IMG/VR virus record: IMGVR_UViG_3300042731_007292
Span: 1-39,753 of that record
Source: a virus
Length of the DNA stretch: 39,753 bases
Reading direction: 5' to 3' (one strand)
A model generated the notes under the pieces. That model did no database searches, had not been told where the DNA came from, and saw nothing but the letters and a program-made list of their open reading frames with translations. Positions 2,229 to 30,112 of the stretch are shown in pieces (within the stretch, counting starts at the first letter, position 1; every line of letters begins with the position of its first letter). The position numbers and the translations under genes were made by a program.

Positions 2229-4180
2229 GTATAATTTTAGTTTATCCACCACAAAGAGTTTATGAAGGATACGGACAGGGCAGAGAATGGCCGCCGATTG
2301 GCATTGCTTCAATTGCTGCCAACCTTGGCAAAGAATGTATTTGTTTAGATTTATTTGAATATAATGAAGATAATGCATTAGAAGAAATAATTAAATATCT
2401 GGATGATGATAACAATTTCGTTGGGTTTACAATGTTAACAGAGCAAAGACATGTAGTTCTTGACCTTTGCGAAAAATTAAAAAATCAATTTGTTTGCAAG
2501 GTTCCAGTAACTACAATTGTAGGTGGACCACATCCATCAATTATGTATCAGCAATTAACACAATATCCTTTTCTTGACTACATAGTAGTAGGTGAGGGTG
2601 AAAATGCATTTAGGGATATTGTTTCCGGAAAAGGACCAAGAGTTTTTAAATATTCTTTGGAAAAAGATTTAGATAATTTTAAGCCAGCAATTGAAGGACT
2701 AAAATATTTTAAGACTCCATTAAATTTTAAGGAAGCACCAATTGTATTATCAAGAGGATGTACAGACCATTGTTTTTTTTGCTCAACTAATAAAACATGG
2801 GGAAGATATAGAAGTAGAAGTGCTGTTTGTGTTGCGAATGAAATAGCTAAATACAAAGAATTATATGGAATTGAATATTTTAAATTTCAAGATGATTCAG
2901 CTACAGCAGATAAACAAAAAATAATCGATTTGGGTAATTTAATTGGAAATTTAAAAATTAAATTTGAATTAACCTGCAGGGCAGATCAATTTGATGAAGA
3001 AATGATTAAACAATTAAAAGTTGCAGGATGTGTAAAAGTTGCTTTGGGTGTTGAAACTGGAAATGATAAATTTAGACAAAAAATGGGTAAAAATCTTAAT
3101 AGAAAACTAATGTATGAAAATATAGCACTATTGAAAAAATATGGAATACATGTACATTTATTATTGATCCTTGGTTGGCCTGGTGAAAATGATGAAACAG
3201 TCGAAGATACTTGCCAAATGATTAGAGCTTTGCAGCCAGATAGTTTTTCAAAACTTCCAGGGCTTATGATTGTGCCTGGAACTCCAGTCTATAATCAACT
3301 TAAAAAGCGAAATTACATTGATGATAATTACTGGTTAGAGAATAAACCATGTCCTTATTACACAGATGAAATGATTACCCCAAATAAATTAAACATATGG
3401 CATAATAAAATTAATAACTGTATGGCCATAAAAAAAGTTTTGATAACTGCTGTAGTTAACCAGGATGAAAAAATTTTTGAAGAGTATTTAAAAAAACTTG
3501 GCCAACAAAAACATGATAAAAATATTATTATCAAGAAATTTTTTATTCTTCATAATTCAAGCAATTTAAAAAAATATTTGAATGATGATGAATATATCTG
3601 TGTAAATAATAATCTAAATCATGATTTCAAACATGAATGGAGTCAAACAAAATTTGCATTTTTAGCAGAACAAAAAAATAGAATAGTTGAAAAAGCGTTA
3701 GAAACTGGAGCAGACTATTTATTTTGGGTAGATAGTGATTTAATGATTCATGAAAGAACATTAGATACTTTAATCAGCAGGAATGTAGATATAATTGGGA
3801 ATATATTTTGGACAGAATGGCCGGAAACAACAAAGCAAGGACTTAAAGAAATGCCAAATTGCTGGGATATTGACCAATATAATTTTGTTGAAGGATTTCA
3901 AAAATATAGAGAAAAAGCTGTTTTTTATGTTGGAGGAACTGGAGCGTGTATTCTCGTAAATACAGATGTTTATAAAAATGGAGCAACTTATAATTTTATT
4001 CCTAATGTAAGTTTTAGTATGTGGGAAGATAGAGCTTTTTGTATTAGGGCTACTGTTTTAGGATATCCAATTTTAATTGACACTACTTATCCAGCAAAAC
4101 ATTTATATACTGAAAAAATAGTAAAGGAATATTTCGAAAATGAAATTTGTGATAAAATGGAGGTGGAGAAAGTTGAATAA
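2225..4180 (+). CDS. B12-binding-type radical SAM protein fused to a GT-A glycosyltransferase
   Basis: A 651-aa two-part enzyme. Residues 1-140 look like the cobalamin-binding-like N-domain of class B radical SAM enzymes (ILVYPPQRVYEG, WPPIGIASIAANL, IVGGPHPS, IVVGEGENAF), without an obvious DxHxxG cobalamin motif. The [4Fe-4S] motif is C179-x3-C183-x2-C186 (SRGCTDHCFFCS), followed by a radical SAM TIM barrel (FKFQDDSAT, LGVETGNDKFR, LILGWPGE). From about residue 400 a second domain starts at MAIKKVLITAVV. It carries DSD 503-505 (YLFWVDSDLM), a GGTGACI loop and WEDRAFCIRA, as in GT-A transferases. Radical chemistry on a sugar, or C-methylation coupled to transfer, is the likely role (inference). 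The internal ATG at 3422 lacks an RBS, so this is a true fusion. Confidence 0.88.
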   Translation: MSIILVYPPQRVYEGYGQGREWPPIGIASIAANLGKECICLDLFEYNEDNALEEIIKYLDDDNNFVGFTMLTEQRHVVLDLCEKLKNQFVCKVPVTTIVGGPHPSIMYQQLTQYPFLDYIVVGEGENAFRDIVSGKGPRVFKYSLEKDLDNFKPAIEGLKYFKTPLNFKEAPIVLSRGCTDHCFFCSTNKTWGRYRSRSAVCVANEIAKYKELYGIEYFKFQDDSATADKQKIIDLGNLIGNLKIKFELTCRADQFDEEMIKQLKVAGCVKVALGVETGNDKFRQKMGKNLNRKLMYENIALLKKYGIHVHLLLILGWPGENDETVEDTCQMIRALQPDSFSKLPGLMIVPGTPVYNQLKKRNYIDDNYWLENKPCPYYTDEMITPNKLNIWHNKINNCMAIKKVLITAVVNQDEKIFEEYLKKLGQQKHDKNIIIKKFFILHNSSNLKKYLNDDEYICVNNNLNHDFKHEWSQTKFAFLAEQKNRIVEKALETGADYLFWVDSDLMIHERTLDTLISRNVDIIGNIFWTEWPETTKQGLKEMPNCWDIDQYNFVEGFQKYREKAVFYVGGTGACILVNTDVYKNGATYNFIPNVSFSMWEDRAFCIRATVLGYPILIDTTYPAKHLYTEKIVKEYFENEICDKMEVEKVE

Positions 4181-4751
4181 ATTTTTTACTGTGGATGATG
4201 AAAAACTAAACAATTTAGATGATTTTAAAATTCCTTCAGAATGGTGGTCAAGACCTTCCGAATATGCTTTTGCAGATAAATTTTTGAAAGAAAATGAAAC
4301 AATCATTGACGCTGGTTGTGGTATAGAACATCCATTTAAATTTTATGCAGCTAAAAGATGTAAAAAAGTTTATGCAATAGATAGAGATAAAAGACTTGAA
4401 ACATTAGAAAAAAAAGAAAATATTGAATACATTTGTAGTAATCTTGAATCTTTTAAATTGAAAGAGCAAGTTGATAAAATCTTTTGTATTTCATGTTTAG
4501 AAAGAATTAATAATTTTACACCTGTTTTTTCTAATTTAGCTAAATATATTAAAAATGATGGACAAATAATAATAACAATTGCATATCCTCTTTTAAAACC
4601 TGACATTGTTATACAAGCTTTAAAAGATAAATTTATTGTAGAAAAAAATATAAATTATAAAGAATCTAAAAATGATATATATTCAGCACTATATAAATTA
4701 AAATGTTGTTCAATCATTGCAAAAAGGAGAAAAAAAAATGTTAGCAAATAG
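4173..4751 (+). CDS. Class I SAM-dependent methyltransferase (2)
   Basis: 192 aa from a TTG start at 4173, chosen because GGAGGTGG lies 6-7 nt upstream; the in-frame ATG at 4140 has no RBS. It overlaps the radical SAM gene by 8 nt. Motif I is TIIDAGCGIEHPF, with the acidic ribose-binding position in VYAIDRDKRLE and the substrate-region motif VDKIFCISCLERI. It is shorter and more K/N/I-rich than methyltransferase 1, matching the very AT-rich DNA here. It is probably part of the same modification pathway; target unknown. Confidence 0.8.
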   Translation: MNKFFTVDDEKLNNLDDFKIPSEWWSRPSEYAFADKFLKENETIIDAGCGIEHPFKFYAAKRCKKVYAIDRDKRLETLEKKENIEYICSNLESFKLKEQVDKIFCISCLERINNFTPVFSNLAKYIKNDGQIIITIAYPLLKPDIVIQALKDKFIVEKNINYKESKNDIYSALYKLKCCSIIAKRRKKNVSK

Positions 4752-7135: not shown

Positions 7136-7531
7136 ATGTTTGCAAATGGAGCAACATTACAATTTGGAACTACAAATACGGTTAGCGAATTAACTAATAT
7201 TACATTTGGGGGATATGATGCTGATGACCTTGATACAACAACACATAATTCTTCAACAAAATTTAGAACTTATGAAAAAGGGTTAACTGATGCAGGTGTT
7301 GTTGATTTTGAAGGACTAGGAGACCAGGATGACATTGATATATTGGAACCTTTAGCTACAACTACAACATTGCAATCAATTACAGTTACAGTTCCAACAA
7401 CTCCATCAGTTACAAAATTTGAATGCAATGGATTTATTAATTCATTTGAAGTTGGAGCGCCACACGATGATTTAATTAGTGTAAGTGGAAGTATAAAAAT
7501 ATCTGGTAAACCAACTTATAGCAAAGTATAG
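7136..7531 (+). CDS. Major tail tube protein
   Basis: 131 aa with GGGGGT upstream. The fold signature of short siphovirus tail tube proteins is present: FANGATLQFGTT, ELTNITFGGYDADDLDTTTH, VDFEGLGDQDD and a final ISVSGSIKISGK strand. Its position between tail completion and tail chaperone is diagnostic. As one of the most abundant virion proteins it is a candidate acceptor for the glycosylation island (inference). Confidence 0.87.
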   Translation: MFANGATLQFGTTNTVSELTNITFGGYDADDLDTTTHNSSTKFRTYEKGLTDAGVVDFEGLGDQDDIDILEPLATTTTLQSITVTVPTTPSVTKFECNGFINSFEVGAPHDDLISVSGSIKISGKPTYSKV

Positions 7532-13731: not shown

Positions 13732-13959
13732 ATGGAAATGGGAATAAGTGAACTTATACAATTTGTTTTTAATAATGGATTAGCAGTTGTTTTAATATTT
13801 TATTATCTTAGAAATAATAACACAACAACTAAAGATTTAGTAAAATCAAATACTGAAGTTACTTCAAAATTAACAGAGCTTGTTGAAAAACAAAATAAAT
13901 TAATTGAAAAACAAGAAAAAGTATATGCTATAATTGATAAATGCCAAAAAGCTGGATAA
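13732..13959 (+). CDS. BhlA/UviB-type holin
   Basis: 75 aa from the second of two adjacent ATGs (13729 or 13732) after AGGGGAA. A single transmembrane helix (ELIQFVFNNGLAVVLIFYYL) is followed by a charged coiled coil (LTELVEKQNKLIEKQEKVYAII), the BhlA/UviB layout common in clostridial and Bacillus phages. It makes membrane pores that release endolysin. It is the last gene of the plus-strand late transcript, far from the endolysin at 30837. Confidence 0.82.
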   Translation: MEMGISELIQFVFNNGLAVVLIFYYLRNNNTTTKDLVKSNTEVTSKLTELVEKQNKLIEKQEKVYAIIDKCQKAG

Positions 13960-13998
13960 AGTTAAAGCGACTGATTACTTGCCAGTCGCTTTAACTTT
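13958..13998. terminator. Bidirectional intrinsic terminator between late and early operons
   Basis: A perfect 16-bp stem (13958-13973 with 13983-13998) with a 9-nt loop, then CTTTATTT. It begins at the holin stop and overlaps the 3' end of the minus-strand XRE gene, so it can end both converging transcripts. Confidence 0.85.
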
Positions 13999-26405: not shown

Positions 26406-27935
26406 CTATTGAAAATTAAATTCATCTAAGTCTATTTGCTTGCCTTCTTGTTCTGACTTAATGTATTGTTTTTCATTCATGTCTATAGTTGATAGTAATG
26501 TATTTTGATAAAAATCTTTTACTTCTTCATTAAATGATAATCCTTCGTAATACCAACCTTTATGTAATGTATTTTTTTTCTTTACTAAATTTAGTGATTC
26601 AATTGTTATTTTCATGTTTTTATATGAAAGTTTTGTTAAACCTTCTAATATACAATATTTTTCATAAACATCTTTAAATTCAGAACAAATAACAAAATTA
26701 TTTGATTCTCTATCAATTGAACAACAATTATAAATAAACTTTTTAACATTATTATTTTCAAGTTCAAATTGTTCCTTTGCTTCTTTTATTCTTCCAACTT
26801 CTGAAAACTTCCAATTATTTTCGATAAGCCTGTGTAATCCTTCAATTGCCCATGAAACAATAATTTCCATTTCTGATTTATCCATAGAAATTAATTTACC
26901 TATACTTGAAATTTTATTTTTTTCTGAAACTACTTTATCAAAAGGAACTATAATTAATCGTCTCATAAAGCCTTGAGTTTTATCAGCTATATTTGGTAGT
27001 TCATTACAACTAAAAATTAGTTTTGCACGATTATAAAAATCAAATCCGTCCCTAAACTTAGGATTACAATGGATAGAATCTTCGCCTGTAGCTCTTTTTA
27101 AAAGCGAATCATCTTTGATATATTCACTTGAAATATCAGAACAAATATTCAAAAGTTTATTATATAAAGAATATACTCTTACATCGTCTTGAAAATGCTT
27201 TAATTCTAAGCTTGAAACAAATCTGCTATCAAATAAACTACTTAAAATTTTAAGCAATTGCGATTTCCCATTTTTAGCTTTTCCGGAAAAAATAAAAAAC
27301 TTCTGTGCTTCAACAGATAAACATAAACAATATCCAAAAATTTCTTGAAGTATTTTTATTTGGTCAGAATCTAAACTATATTTAATCAAATGGCCAAATA
27401 ATGTTTTTGACATATCTTTCTCTTTATGCAAATCTTTTTTATAATCAAAATTAATTTGAATAGTGCTATAATAATCTTTTGAATGTTTAATAATTTGTCT
27501 TTTTTCTATATCATACATACCATTTTTAAAATTAATTAAATTTTCATATTTATTTATTTCTGAAGATTTTTTTATTCCTCTTTCTCTAATTTCCTTTAAA
27601 GTGTTTACTCTATTTAGTTCAGGTCTTGGATCCTTATAGTTCAAATTTTTATTTATTTCATCTCTTAAATCATTAGTTATTTTATATACACCATCTTTGT
27701 ATAATAAAGTATCCTTTTCATGGCCTGTTACATTTATAATGTGTTTACCTTGTAAAATTTTTTCTGCTAAAATTTGCGGATAAAAATAAATAAGTTTTCC
27801 ATCTTTGCTCTTACCATAAAAACTTTCAGTTTTAATTTTGTTAACTTCTTCTAAATTATTAAAAATATCTTTTGCAATCTTTTCATTAATTGCAACTACC
27901 TGATGCTTATTTTTCAAGATTTCAACATAACTCAT
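26406..27935 (-). CDS. D5/P4-type SF3 replicative helicase
   Basis: 509 aa from ATG 27935 overlapping the AbrB-like gene. The D5_N-type region (INFKNGMYDIEKRQIIKHS, YYSTIQINFDY) precedes an SF3 ATPase: Walker A FSGKAKNGKSQLLK, Walker B around LLNICSDISSEYI, and sensor-like AKLIFSCNELPNIADKT with GFMRRLIIVPF. A C-terminal helical domain follows. No AEP primase catalytic motif is apparent; the separate CHC2 protein may supply primase-related function (inference). It starts 0.4 kb from the dyad origin candidate, as expected for an initiator helicase. Confidence 0.88.
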   Translation of the reverse strand: MSYVEILKNKHQVVAINEKIAKDIFNNLEEVNKIKTESFYGKSKDGKLIYFYPQILAEKILQGKHIINVTGHEKDTLLYKDGVYKITNDLRDEINKNLNYKDPRPELNRVNTLKEIRERGIKKSSEINKYENLINFKNGMYDIEKRQIIKHSKDYYSTIQINFDYKKDLHKEKDMSKTLFGHLIKYSLDSDQIKILQEIFGYCLCLSVEAQKFFIFSGKAKNGKSQLLKILSSLFDSRFVSSLELKHFQDDVRVYSLYNKLLNICSDISSEYIKDDSLLKRATGEDSIHCNPKFRDGFDFYNRAKLIFSCNELPNIADKTQGFMRRLIIVPFDKVVSEKNKISSIGKLISMDKSEMEIIVSWAIEGLHRLIENNWKFSEVGRIKEAKEQFELENNNVKKFIYNCCSIDRESNNFVICSEFKDVYEKYCILEGLTKLSYKNMKITIESLNLVKKKNTLHKGWYYEGLSFNEEVKDFYQNTLLSTIDMNEKQYIKSEQEGKQIDLDEFNFQ

Positions 27936-27937
27936 AA

Positions 27938-28120
27938 TCACACCGCCGTTTTAGTAATTATTACCTCGTTTTTTGTTACTACTACGTTAATGCCATTTTC
28001 AAGACCAAGTTCTTCAACATATCTTTTCGGAATAATTACACACTTAGATGTTCCAGTTCTATCAAGCTTTTTTTTATTCCATTCAGCAATTTTAATATTA
28101 TTAGTTTCAACTTTTTCCAC
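27938..28120 (-). CDS. AbrB/SpoVT-like DNA-binding protein
   Basis: 60 aa from GTG 28120, eight nt after GGAGG; a TTG at 28135 overlaps that RBS. RTGTSKCVIIPKRYVEELGL then ENGINVVVTKNEVIITK is the swapped-hairpin AbrB pattern (a strand, PK.YVEELGL, a strand pair). It is the first gene of the leftward operon, next to the origin region, so it may autoregulate the promoter at 28155-28195 or bind the dyad repeats (inference). Confidence 0.8.
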   Translation of the reverse strand: MEKVETNNIKIAEWNKKKLDRTGTSKCVIIPKRYVEELGLENGINVVVTKNEVIITKTAV

Positions 28121-28154
28121 TTTACAAACCTCCAATTATTATTAATCTTAATAA

Positions 28155-28195
28155 ATACGTATAAATATTATAATATATGTAAATTAAAAAGACAA
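28155..28195 (-). promoter_or_regulatory. Minus-strand promoter of the replication operon
   Basis: On the minus strand TTGTCT (28190-28195), 17 nt, TATAAT (28167-28172). The palindrome ATACGTAT (28155-28162) sits at the predicted start point, and the TATACGT motif recurs in the two 36-bp repeat promoters. Confidence 0.78.
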
Positions 28196-28244
28196 CAACA
28201 TTTTATGCCATTATAAATTAACAATTCCCAAAAGTGTGTCAACT

Positions 28245-28488
28245 TTTCCCATTTTCCCAATGTCGAATTTTACCTCCCATTTTTTTTCCCAAGTTTTTCG
28301 CCTAAGTTTAGACGTTTTCCCAAGTTTCCCAACTTTTTGTTAACCATCGCATATTACACGCGCACACGCGCGCATATAAATAAAGATTTTTTAAAAAGTT
28401 GGGAAACTTGGGAAACATCACTGAAATGCATAAAAAACTTGGGAAAAAAGTTGGGAAGGGAAATTTTAACAGTTGGGAAAATGGGAAA
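28245..28488. other. Probable replication origin: nested inverted iterons on one dyad axis
   Basis: Three perfect inverted pairs are nested: 28316-28338 with 28393-28415 (23 nt), 28282-28298 with 28433-28449 (17 nt) and 28245-28260 with 28473-28488 (16 nt). Centres are 28365.5, 28365.5 and 28366.5. All arms are built from TTTCCCAA on the left and TTGGGAAA on the right. The centre (28355-28378) is a 24-nt strictly alternating purine-pyrimidine run with CGCG blocks, flanked by AT-rich DNA. It lies next to the D5 helicase and AbrB-like genes. This is what an initiator-binding, bidirectional origin could look like; function is inferred. Confidence 0.65.
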
Positions 28489-28616
28489 TTTATTTTAATT
28501 AATTTTGTGAAGTTGTTGAATTTACTGGATTTAGACCAAATAGACCATTTTGATAAAAAATTTTTTTACATAACAAATTAGTTTAATTTATTTTTCCCAG
28601 ATACAGAAAGAACTGC

Positions 28617-28643
28617 AAAAAAAAAAAAAGAGACTTTCGTCTC
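28617..28643 (-). terminator. Leftward intrinsic terminator
   Basis: On the minus strand GAGAC-GAAA-GTCTC (28630-28643) followed by 13 T residues (28617-28629). It stops transcription heading left toward the inverted-repeat origin. Confidence 0.85.
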
Positions 28644-28689
28644 AATAGGGATTATTCATATTGAAATGAATAATGGTTTCAGTATTTAC
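28617..28689 (-). ncRNA. Predicted leftward small RNA beside the origin
   Basis: An extended -10 on the minus strand (TGCTATAAT, -10 at 28696-28701, weak -35) predicts a start near 28689. The transcript would hold a 9-bp hairpin (28651-28659 with 28666-28674) and end at the U13 terminator, about 73 nt. It has no open reading frame. Its position between the dyad origin and the divergent RNA promoter resembles counter-transcribed copy-control RNAs, but no complementary target was found by eye. Confidence 0.62.
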
Positions 28690-28770
28690 AATTAGATTAT
28701 AGCATAAAAGCCAATAATGTATTTGTTTTCGGAAATTTGCAGGAAATAATTTTTTCAAATCAATTTATGG

Positions 28771-28776: not shown

Positions 28777-28782
28777 GATTTA

Positions 28783-28990
28783 GTGTGTAATAGTAGATGT
28801 CATATAGACAATTGGGAGTCGCTGGCTGAAAGGATTTAATTGCTGAGTAGGATGGAAATACCGGTTCAAGTCAGGTTGTGACATTAAAACCAACATAGTA
28901 TAAGGTTGCGTAATACAATGACTATGATATCAAGGATTACGGGCGAGTGTAGCGTCTTATAGGGTTAGCTGGCAAATCCAATACTACACA
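28783..28990 (+). ncRNA. Structured noncoding RNA with pseudoknot and tRNA-like elbow, unknown class
   Basis: About 208 nt with no ORF and a GC content above its surroundings. A closing stem joins TGTGT (28784-28788) and AGTA (28792-28795) to TACTACACA (28982-28990). CATAGT (28894-28899) pairs with ACTATG (28921-28926); the enclosed CGTAAT (28909-28914) pairs with ATTACG (28936-28941), an H-type pseudoknot. GCTGGCTGA (28821-28829) can pair with TTAGCTGGC (28965-28973). A tRNA-like acceptor (28798-28804 with 28877-28883), D arm (GAC/GTC, loop with GGG) and T arm (GTTCAAGTC) are spaced as in tRNA but without an anticodon stem. I could not match it to a known RNA family. Confidence 0.68.
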
Positions 28991-29012: not shown

Positions 29013-29041
29013 TTGACTAATTTCAAAAAAATATATATAAT
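29013..29041 (+). promoter_or_regulatory. SigmaA promoter of the rightward accessory operon
   Basis: TTGACT (29013-29018), 17-nt spacer, TATAAT (29036-29041). The start is predicted near 29048, at the 5' edge of the double-hairpin leader. Confidence 0.85.
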
Positions 29042-29050
29042 AAATTTAAG

Positions 29051-29145
29051 TTTATGTGCTTTGACTTGAACCCCCACCAATACAAAACACATAAAAAATA
29101 AGTGTCTTATAAATCTTAGTGGGGGAACTGGATTTATAAGACACT
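29051..29145 (+). promoter_or_regulatory. 5' leader RNA with two hairpins and complementary kissing loops
   Basis: Hairpin 1: TTTATGTG/CACATAAA (29051-29058 with 29088-29095), a mismatch, then TTTG/CAAA, with a 19-nt loop containing CCCCCAC (29071-29077). Hairpin 2: a perfect 15-bp stem (29101-29115 with 29131-29145) whose 15-nt loop contains GTGGGGG (29119-29125). The loops are complementary over 7 bp, so they can kiss, or the same segments can form a pseudoknot. The AAGGAG site follows 8 nt later. This fits a 5' leader controlling translation, stability or ligand response of the operon. Confidence 0.72.
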
Positions 29146-29165
29146 TTTGTGTGAAGGAGATTAAA

Positions 29166-29453
29166 ATGTTAAATAAAAAAGTAATTATAAGAGGAGATAG
29201 AAGTGGAGTTTTTTTTGGAGAGTTAATTAAAAGAACTGGTCAAGAAGTAGAACTTAAAAATTGTAGGCGTTTATGGTATTGGCATGGAGCTGCAAGTATA
29301 TCTCAACTTGCAAAAGAAGGAACAAAAAAACCTGCCAGTTGTAAATTTACAATTACTGTTGAACAAATTATTATTACTGATGCAATTGAAATTATTTTAT
29401 GTACTGATAAGGCAATAAATTCGATCGAAGGTGTTGCAGAATGGATCTATTAA
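29166..29453 (+). CDS. DUF6948-like phage protein
   Basis: 95 aa from ATG 29166 (AAGGAG upstream; in-frame 29151 is inside the RBS). VIIRGDRSGVFFGELIKRTG, VELKNCRRLWYWHGAASISQ and IEIILCTDKAINSIEGVAEW match the small conserved phage family I know as DUF6948. Function unknown. First gene after the kissing-loop leader, often found next to repeat-rich proteins like the following one. Confidence 0.8.
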   Translation: MLNKKVIIRGDRSGVFFGELIKRTGQEVELKNCRRLWYWHGAASISQLAKEGTKKPASCKFTITVEQIIITDAIEIILCTDKAINSIEGVAEWIY

Positions 29454-30112
29454 AAGAATTCTTATTTATTTGTTCTGGCGATGGTGATGGCTATGGCTCT
29501 GGCTCTGGCGATGGCTCTGGCGATGGCGATGGCTCTGGCTCTGGCGATGGCTCTGGCGATGGCGATGGCTCTGGCGATGGCTATGGCTCTGGTTCTGGCT
29601 ATGGCTCTGGCGATGGCGATGGAATTAAGAAAGTTAACAACATGTATTTTTATGAAATTGATGGAATTTTAACAGCAATTAAAACTGTAAAAAAAAGAGA
29701 TGAAACATTTATAGCAAAAGGATATATTTTGAATAATGATTTAAGGTCAGAAAACACAATTATTGTAAAACAAAATAATATATTTGCACATGGAAAAACG
29801 TTAAAAGATGCTATAGCATCACTGAATAATAAATTATTTGAAGTATTAAGCGAAGAAGAGAGAGTCGAAAAGTTTTTAGAAAATTTTGATATTGATAAAA
29901 AATATAAAGGTAATATATTTTTTGAATGGCATGGCAACCTTACAGGAAGCTGCAAACAAGGACGTGAATCTTTTATAAAAAATAATAACATAGATTTAGA
30001 AAAATCATATACTATTTGTGAATTTATTGATTTGACAATTAATGAATATGGTAGCGAAATTATCAAAATGTTAAAAAAAGGATATAATTTACATAGGAGG
30101 AAGCATGTTTAA
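29441..30112 (+). CDS. GDGSG-repeat phage protein
   Basis: 223 aa, overlapping the previous gene, with GAAGGTG as RBS. Residues 13-61 are an uninterrupted G-x repeat in which x is D, S or Y, coded by GGC plus GAT/TCT/TAT hexamers. The remainder is a globular acidic/basic domain (YFYEIDGILTAIKTVKKRDE, FFEWHGNLTGSCKQGRES, CEFIDLTINEYGSEII). Glycine-rich D/S/Y repeats of this kind appear in gut phage proteins near DUF6948; function unknown. The tract could bind calcium, act as a flexible spacer, or vary in length by slippage. Confidence 0.78.
   Translation: MDLLKEFLFICSGDGDGYGSGSGDGSGDGDGSGSGDGSGDGDGSGDGYGSGSGYGSGDGDGIKKVNNMYFYEIDGILTAIKTVKKRDETFIAKGYILNNDLRSENTIIVKQNNIFAHGKTLKDAIASLNNKLFEVLSEEERVEKFLENFDIDKKYKGNIFFEWHGNLTGSCKQGRESFIKNNNIDLEKSYTICEFIDLTINEYGSEIIKMLKKGYNLHRRKHV
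29477..29623 (+). repeat. GC-rich hexamer repeat tract
   Basis: Tandem GGN-GAT, GGN-TCT and GGN-TAT hexamers (for example GGCGATGGCTCT) fill about 147 nt inside an AT-rich gene. Gains or losses of units keep the reading frame. Confidence 0.9.

Follow-up and report, generated by a model that had tools for sequence, protein, structure and literature searches.

Does a mirror-image array of short repeats beside a phage helicase gene mark the place where replication begins, and if so, why should the repeats be mirrored? Helicases of the D5/P4 type initiate the replication of many phages, as well as of plasmids and satellites. There are two models of how they recognise their DNA, namely through iterons (P4, SaPI, Cch2) and through a stem-loop (pRN1). 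Both features coincide in the window, the 39,753-base stretch analysed here, which is a complete circular phage record with a 69-bp direct terminal repeat and about 28% GC. Its mirror-image array spans ~260 bases beside the helicase gene. On the basis of sequence comparison, we consider it quite probable that this array is the phage replication origin, recognised by the adjacent D5/P4-family SF3 helicase. No DNA similarity of the window to known phages was found, and a host search with its terminase among genome contigs gave no match.

The preliminary description had reported three nested perfect inverted repeats on one dyad axis over 244 nt and had called them a probable origin. The arms are indeed perfect and lie at the positions claimed. 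The inner pair (28316 to 28338, plus strand; 28393 to 28415, minus strand) is complementary over 23 nt and the middle pair (28282 to 28298, plus; 28433 to 28449, minus) over 17 nt, both centred on 28365.5. The outer pair (28245 to 28260, plus; 28473 to 28488, minus) is complementary over 16 nt and centred on 28366.5, within 1 nt of the others. The span of 244 nt holds for the arms, but the structure reaches further. All three pairs are nested inside a single imperfect palindrome, the putative origin, with edges at about 28214 and 28524, and the first iteron lies at 28225. In blastn against its own reverse complement, the palindrome 28214-28524 aligned at 72% with 120 bits, while the runner-up inverted repeat of the genome scored 48 bits. 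Dinucleotide shuffles of 28001-28700 gave a maximum of 48 bits, and none of 200 reached 120. The exact inner arm had no match in viral contigs. The Rfam matches were all to plant microRNA hairpins and below threshold, and are an artefact of the hairpin's length. A reading as transcription terminator was ruled out because the operons on both sides are directed away from the palindrome.

The palindrome is built on ten exact TTCCCAA sites, five on each side of the axis and in opposite orientations, as had been claimed for the two iteron sets. The left set (28225 to 28332, plus strand, C-side) comprises TTCCCAA at 28225, 28254, 28286, 28317 and 28326, with degenerate copies at 28246 (TTCCCAT) and 28274 (CTCCCAT). 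The right set (28399 to 28488, minus strand, G-side) reads TTGGGAA at 28399, 28408, 28439, 28451 and 28473, with degenerate copies at 28456 and 28481. The inner four sites of each side are exactly mirrored, their CCC/GGG triplets lying at offsets of 0, 9, 40 and 52 from the innermost pair (p about 9e-5). Further out the offsets diverge (72, 80 and 101 on the left versus 57, 74 and 82 on the right), the outer pair being off by 2 nt in site register. When iteron order and strand were fixed and the spacing was randomised, the palindrome scored 33 bits on average and 58 at most. When the iterons were fixed in place and the spacers alone were shuffled, the mean was 58 and the maximum 111 bits. In neither randomisation did any of 300 trials reach 120 bits, and together with the dinucleotide shuffles these results bear out the earlier statement that chance is negligible. 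The dyad is not a mere by-product of having repeats. A looser any-axis mirror test on iteron positions alone was not significant (p 0.25-0.54), so the case for symmetry rests on the exact register and the flanking bases. Because of that test, and because most of the 23-nt spacer separating sites two and three is non-complementary, the symmetry is strong but incomplete. Nevertheless, the exactness of the mirror register and the partial complementarity of the spacers suggest selection on the dyad.

Between the inner arms lies a 54-nt core (28339 to 28392), which we propose as the unwinding site. Both of its edges are A+T-rich, and its middle is occupied by a 24-nt, CG-rich tract of alternating purines and pyrimidines, TACACGCGCACACGCGCGCATATA (28355 to 28378), centred on 28366.5, 1 nt from the axis. 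This tract is the longest of its kind in the genome, the next being 15 nt, and the longest in 40 shuffled genomes did not exceed 18 nt. Thus, the core is not simply AT-rich, which counts against an origin.

The gene for the putative initiator lies on the minus strand at 26406 to 27935, with its ATG at 27935, and encodes about 510 aa. The protein scored 169.2 bits against the P4-family model TIGR01613 (cut-off 108.7), matched D5_N above its cut-off as well as DUF5906, and is related to the SaPI5 primase-helicase (PDB 7ola, E 8e-12). Relatives of that enzyme bind iterons through the C-terminal domain (PMC7581432), and a C-terminal winged-helix origin-binding domain has been described in P4 (PMC4234260). 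The C-terminal region of the window's helicase can be aligned with that of D5 proteins encoded next to iterons. The AlphaFold model of the helicase (mean pLDDT 36) is too low in confidence to read a C-terminal winged helix. We propose that this C-terminal domain, at about residues 380-480, would read the asymmetric TTGGGAA iteron, and that the mirrored sets would position a pair of helicase assemblies head to head across the axis. The core could then melt and each helicase ring depart one way, giving bidirectional replication. The dyad itself might either phase two symmetric hexamers or permit a stem-loop on supercoiled DNA.

The preliminary description had named both the AbrB-like protein and the D5 protein as possible binders. 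The helicase C-terminal domain is favoured and the AbrB-like protein is less likely, since the iterons are non-palindromic and since arrays of this kind also adjoin D5 genes of phages in which no AbrB-like neighbour is annotated. For non-palindromic iterons, a recognition domain that acts as a monomer would be a better fit than an AbrB dimer. Iteron specificity was not traceable to protein sequence, as C-terminal identity did not single out Staphylococcus phage DS11, despite its window-like iterons. These iterons, TTGGGAGT/TTCCCAAA, lie at 7228-7503 of the DS11 locus (L016) and have the opposite polarity.

Two relatives show how the locus varies. The sister phage L006 has a terminase 85% identical to that of the window; the late region is common to the two phages, as is some of the noncoding DNA. 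In the helicase gene, the AbrB-like gene and the intergenic region, there is no DNA similarity between the two. The L006 helicase belongs to another family than the window's D5; it matched no PDB, Pfam or NCBIfam family, and its sole match was an uncharacterised PHROG. The corresponding site of L006 has no TTGGGAA array and lacks the window's arms, having only a short CGTAACCG-type repeat. Because both the helicase and the array differ, initiator and repeats appear to have been exchanged together between the two lineages. The closest D5 relative that we found, with 34% identity over residues 41-482, is encoded on a 39.5-kb viral contig, L035, which has no match to the window's terminase. There the order is a palindrome (2217-2472, 131 bits), a gene judged AbrB-like on inspection of its sequence (2669-2821) and D5 (2824-4398). 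Its iterons, GGTACAAAAAT/ATTTTTGTACC, are unrelated to those of the window and are mirrored about 2344.5-2345; even a reversed iteron site has its mirror partner on the other side. The layout is identical and the letters differ.

The same is seen in Streptomyces phages of the genus Woodruffvirus (cluster BG): in seven of seven examined, the intergenic region 5′ of D5, between divergent genes, holds a long palindrome (66-228 bits). Six of these phages have GGCAGAA iterons and phiSAJS1 has TTCCCGCGAAA; CG-alternating tracts lie at or near the palindrome centre. They share with the window the divergent site, the mirrored iterons, the CG-alternating centre and the long palindrome. They differ in being GC-rich, in having no sequence homology to the window and in that their annotation shows no AbrB-like gene separating D5 from the palindrome. 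An origin description of these palindromes was not found in a limited literature check. The preliminary description had looked to sister phages for compensatory changes in the arms. L006 does not have these arms, and no relative can be aligned with those of the window; symmetry with diverged sequence was instead seen in the Woodruffviruses and, by architecture, in L035. In an alignment of five related Woodruffviruses, with the structure taken from one member, Abt2graduatex2, 16 pairs were changed on both sides; sliding the structure gave 1-5 such pairs, and shuffling gave 6.5 on average. By count, all of these two-sided changes fell at non-iteron columns. Template-switch correction could yield the same signal. 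As the layout is found, in different letters, in unrelated phages whose helicases are of one kind, the symmetry itself looks selected.

Template switching could also be the whole explanation, if the palindrome were a bystander, either an inverted duplication kept alike in this way or a mobile fold-back element. The halves do resemble an inverted duplication that has partly diverged towards its outer ends. We regard this as highly improbable, given that the palindrome is single copy in the genome and unmatched among 50,697 phage records, and that L035 and the Woodruffviruses have the same layout beside the same gene in different sequence.

How widespread are such arrays? In 7 of 11 other D5 phage loci, picked from a BLAST list blind to repeats, the densest 7-mer cluster directly adjoins D5, mostly 3′. 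The D5-adjacent iterons of JNU_P5, P185 and R23.1 fall into two opposite sets, and the R23.1 palindrome scores 121 bits. Among 20 D5 loci surveyed in viral contigs, some of them on short stretches, arrays were found in L035, L037 and L053 only; being absent from about 17 of 20, the array is not universal. The mirrored-palindrome layout nevertheless recurs in the window (an AT-rich metagenomic phage), in a second such phage with other iterons and in Streptomyces phages. From these loci, we suggest that iteron arrays next to D5 genes may be frequent among ordinary phages. Two side observations concern these loci. In L053 (2083-2387), twelve GGTAGCA iterons lie 3′ of D5 and form six mirror pairs about 2235, an arrangement reached by none of 20,000 random placements. 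A CTTGAT(A)-type element, e.g. AACCCTTGATATGACTGGTTTT, is common to L009, L011, L014, L016 and L020, in or beside D5-adjacent iteron arrays, and is absent from the window's array.

The position of the array raises a different possibility, namely that it is a cluster of operators through which a phage regulator, the AbrB-like protein or some other, switches the divergent early and late modules, while replication begins elsewhere. The AbrB/MazE-like gene (27938 to 28135, minus strand) is the first of the helicase operon and is predicted from weak TIGR02609, AbrB and MazE matches to encode a small DNA-binding protein. This protein is 36% identical to that of the sister phage, had no match in a search in phages and gave an AlphaFold model with a mean pLDDT of 48. 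It is most likely the regulator of the operon, by analogy with orf56, described as such in pRN1 (PMC4234260). To the right of the palindrome, 600 nt of noncoding DNA precede a rightward late operon (terminase, portal, capsid). The site thus lies between divergent modules, where an operator would be expected, and this too counts against an origin. A good promoter-like site of the AbrB-D5 operon (28195-28167, minus strand; TTGTCT-17-TATAAT, 10/12, by consensus match only) is nearby, and the AbrB-like layout recurs in L035 and, without the long palindrome, in L006. Yet the iterons are numerous and non-palindromic, and they are symmetric about the 54-nt core rather than a promoter. Both best promoter-like sites, the second being at 29013-29041 (plus strand), lie outside the palindrome. 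Furthermore, similar arrays are found 3′ of phage D5 genes, where an operator of that gene is not expected. We therefore consider the operator explanation unlikely and prefer to read the array as an origin.

GC skew had been proposed as a check on that reading. The cumulative minimum falls at 28367, as would fit an origin at the axis, and the maximum at 13967. Both lie near the points where gene orientation switches, and the minimum is weak evidence because of the co-directional genes and of the arms, the left being rich in C and the right in G. At the maximum, where gene ends converge, 13958-13998 holds a 16-nt perfect inverted repeat with a 9-nt loop.

If the array is an origin, the selected feature may be a cruciform or single-strand fold read by the helicase or primase, as has been proposed for pRN1, rather than the iterons as such. 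The predicted DNA fold has -68.4 kcal/mol versus -26.5 for shuffles (z -11), the spacers contribute to the palindrome and the Woodruffvirus compensation lies outside the iterons. In pRN1, the origin needs a symmetric stem-loop whose sequence diverges while the symmetry is kept, and a stem mutation was tolerated only with the symmetry re-established (PMC4234260). Conversely, most of the iteron arrays examined beside D5 form no long palindrome, the 23-nt spacers of the window hardly pair, and template-switch correction can keep palindromes without function. We hold this possibility only tentatively; as it refines the origin reading, the two overlap in probability.

Among known systems, P4 (alpha/ori-crr) resembles the window in having a P4-family SF3 helicase beside short repeated sites. 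P4 alpha differs from the window's helicase in having its own TOPRIM primase, and P4 differs in iteron sequence, the window having a single palindromic locus. With SaPI/PICI elements (SaPI5, SCCmec Cch2) the window shares the D5_N/P4-family helicase, C-terminal region included, and two iteron sets (5 + 5) flanking a core at about 28365.5; in PICI origins two iteron sets flank an AT-rich region (PMC6092414). It differs from them in its strict mirror register and CG-alternating core, in being a complete phage with structural genes, and in that its 510-aa helicase had no primase-domain match. The PICI origin is directly 3′ of rep, as are most D5 arrays examined here relative to the helicase, whereas the array of the window is 5′ of the AbrB-helicase operon, a further point against an origin. 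With pRN1 (orf56/orf904) the window shares an operon of a small DNA-binding regulator and an SF3 helicase, and an extended predicted stem-loop beside the replication gene. The pRN1 stem-loop is 100 nt long, 3′ of the replication gene and devoid of iterons, in contrast to the window, where iterons and palindrome coincide.

The call of a probable origin with D5 as initiator thus gained support from comparison, through the SaPI5-like helicase, the gene order in L035, the Woodruffvirus compensation and the absence of the arms from L006. The site is thus best read as a probable origin of a self-loading D5/P4 helicase, with iterons of the SaPI/P4 type set out in a pRN1-like stem-loop; it lies 5′ of the operon and has a strict mirror register and an alternating centre. 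More doubtfully, such sites may form a recurrent, undescribed class of origins, located 5′ of D5-type helicase genes. Each would be a strictly mirrored palindrome of iterons with a purine-pyrimidine alternation, often of CG, at its centre, and would depend on duplex iteron recognition as well as on stem-loop extrusion. If true, this class would unite the P4/SaPI iteron origins with the pRN1 stem-loop origins in one element. Since iterons and stem-loop coincide here, and since L035 and the Woodruffviruses are natural sets in which the letters vary and the symmetry stays, the need for symmetry, iterons or both is directly testable.

The noncoding DNA between the palindrome and the late operon has features of its own. 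The stretch 28583-28660 is conserved between the window and L006, and a terminator-like hairpin with a T-run, GAGACGAAAGTCTC (minus strand, 28643-28630), would halt transcription towards the palindrome. Positions 28780-28890 are 83% identical in L006 and have tRNA-like features (ATGTCAT...CCGGTTCAAGTC.GG..GTGACAT), and ARAGORN called no tRNA there. After this block, the window has an insertion of ~104 nt relative to L006. The late-operon leader (29060-29150) can form a long hairpin, GTGTCTTATAAATC...GATTTATAAGACAC, whose loop GTGGGGG could pair with an upstream CCCCCAC; this is possibly a pseudoknot leader upstream of the DUF6948 gene. L006 preserves the hairpin with compensating changes (TACCTTATAAATT; CCCCAC/GTGGGG). 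Further downstream, the alignment of the two phages breaks at 29476-29620, where ten TGGCGATGG-type 9-mers lie on one strand inside an ORF (29441-30112) as a coding repeat.
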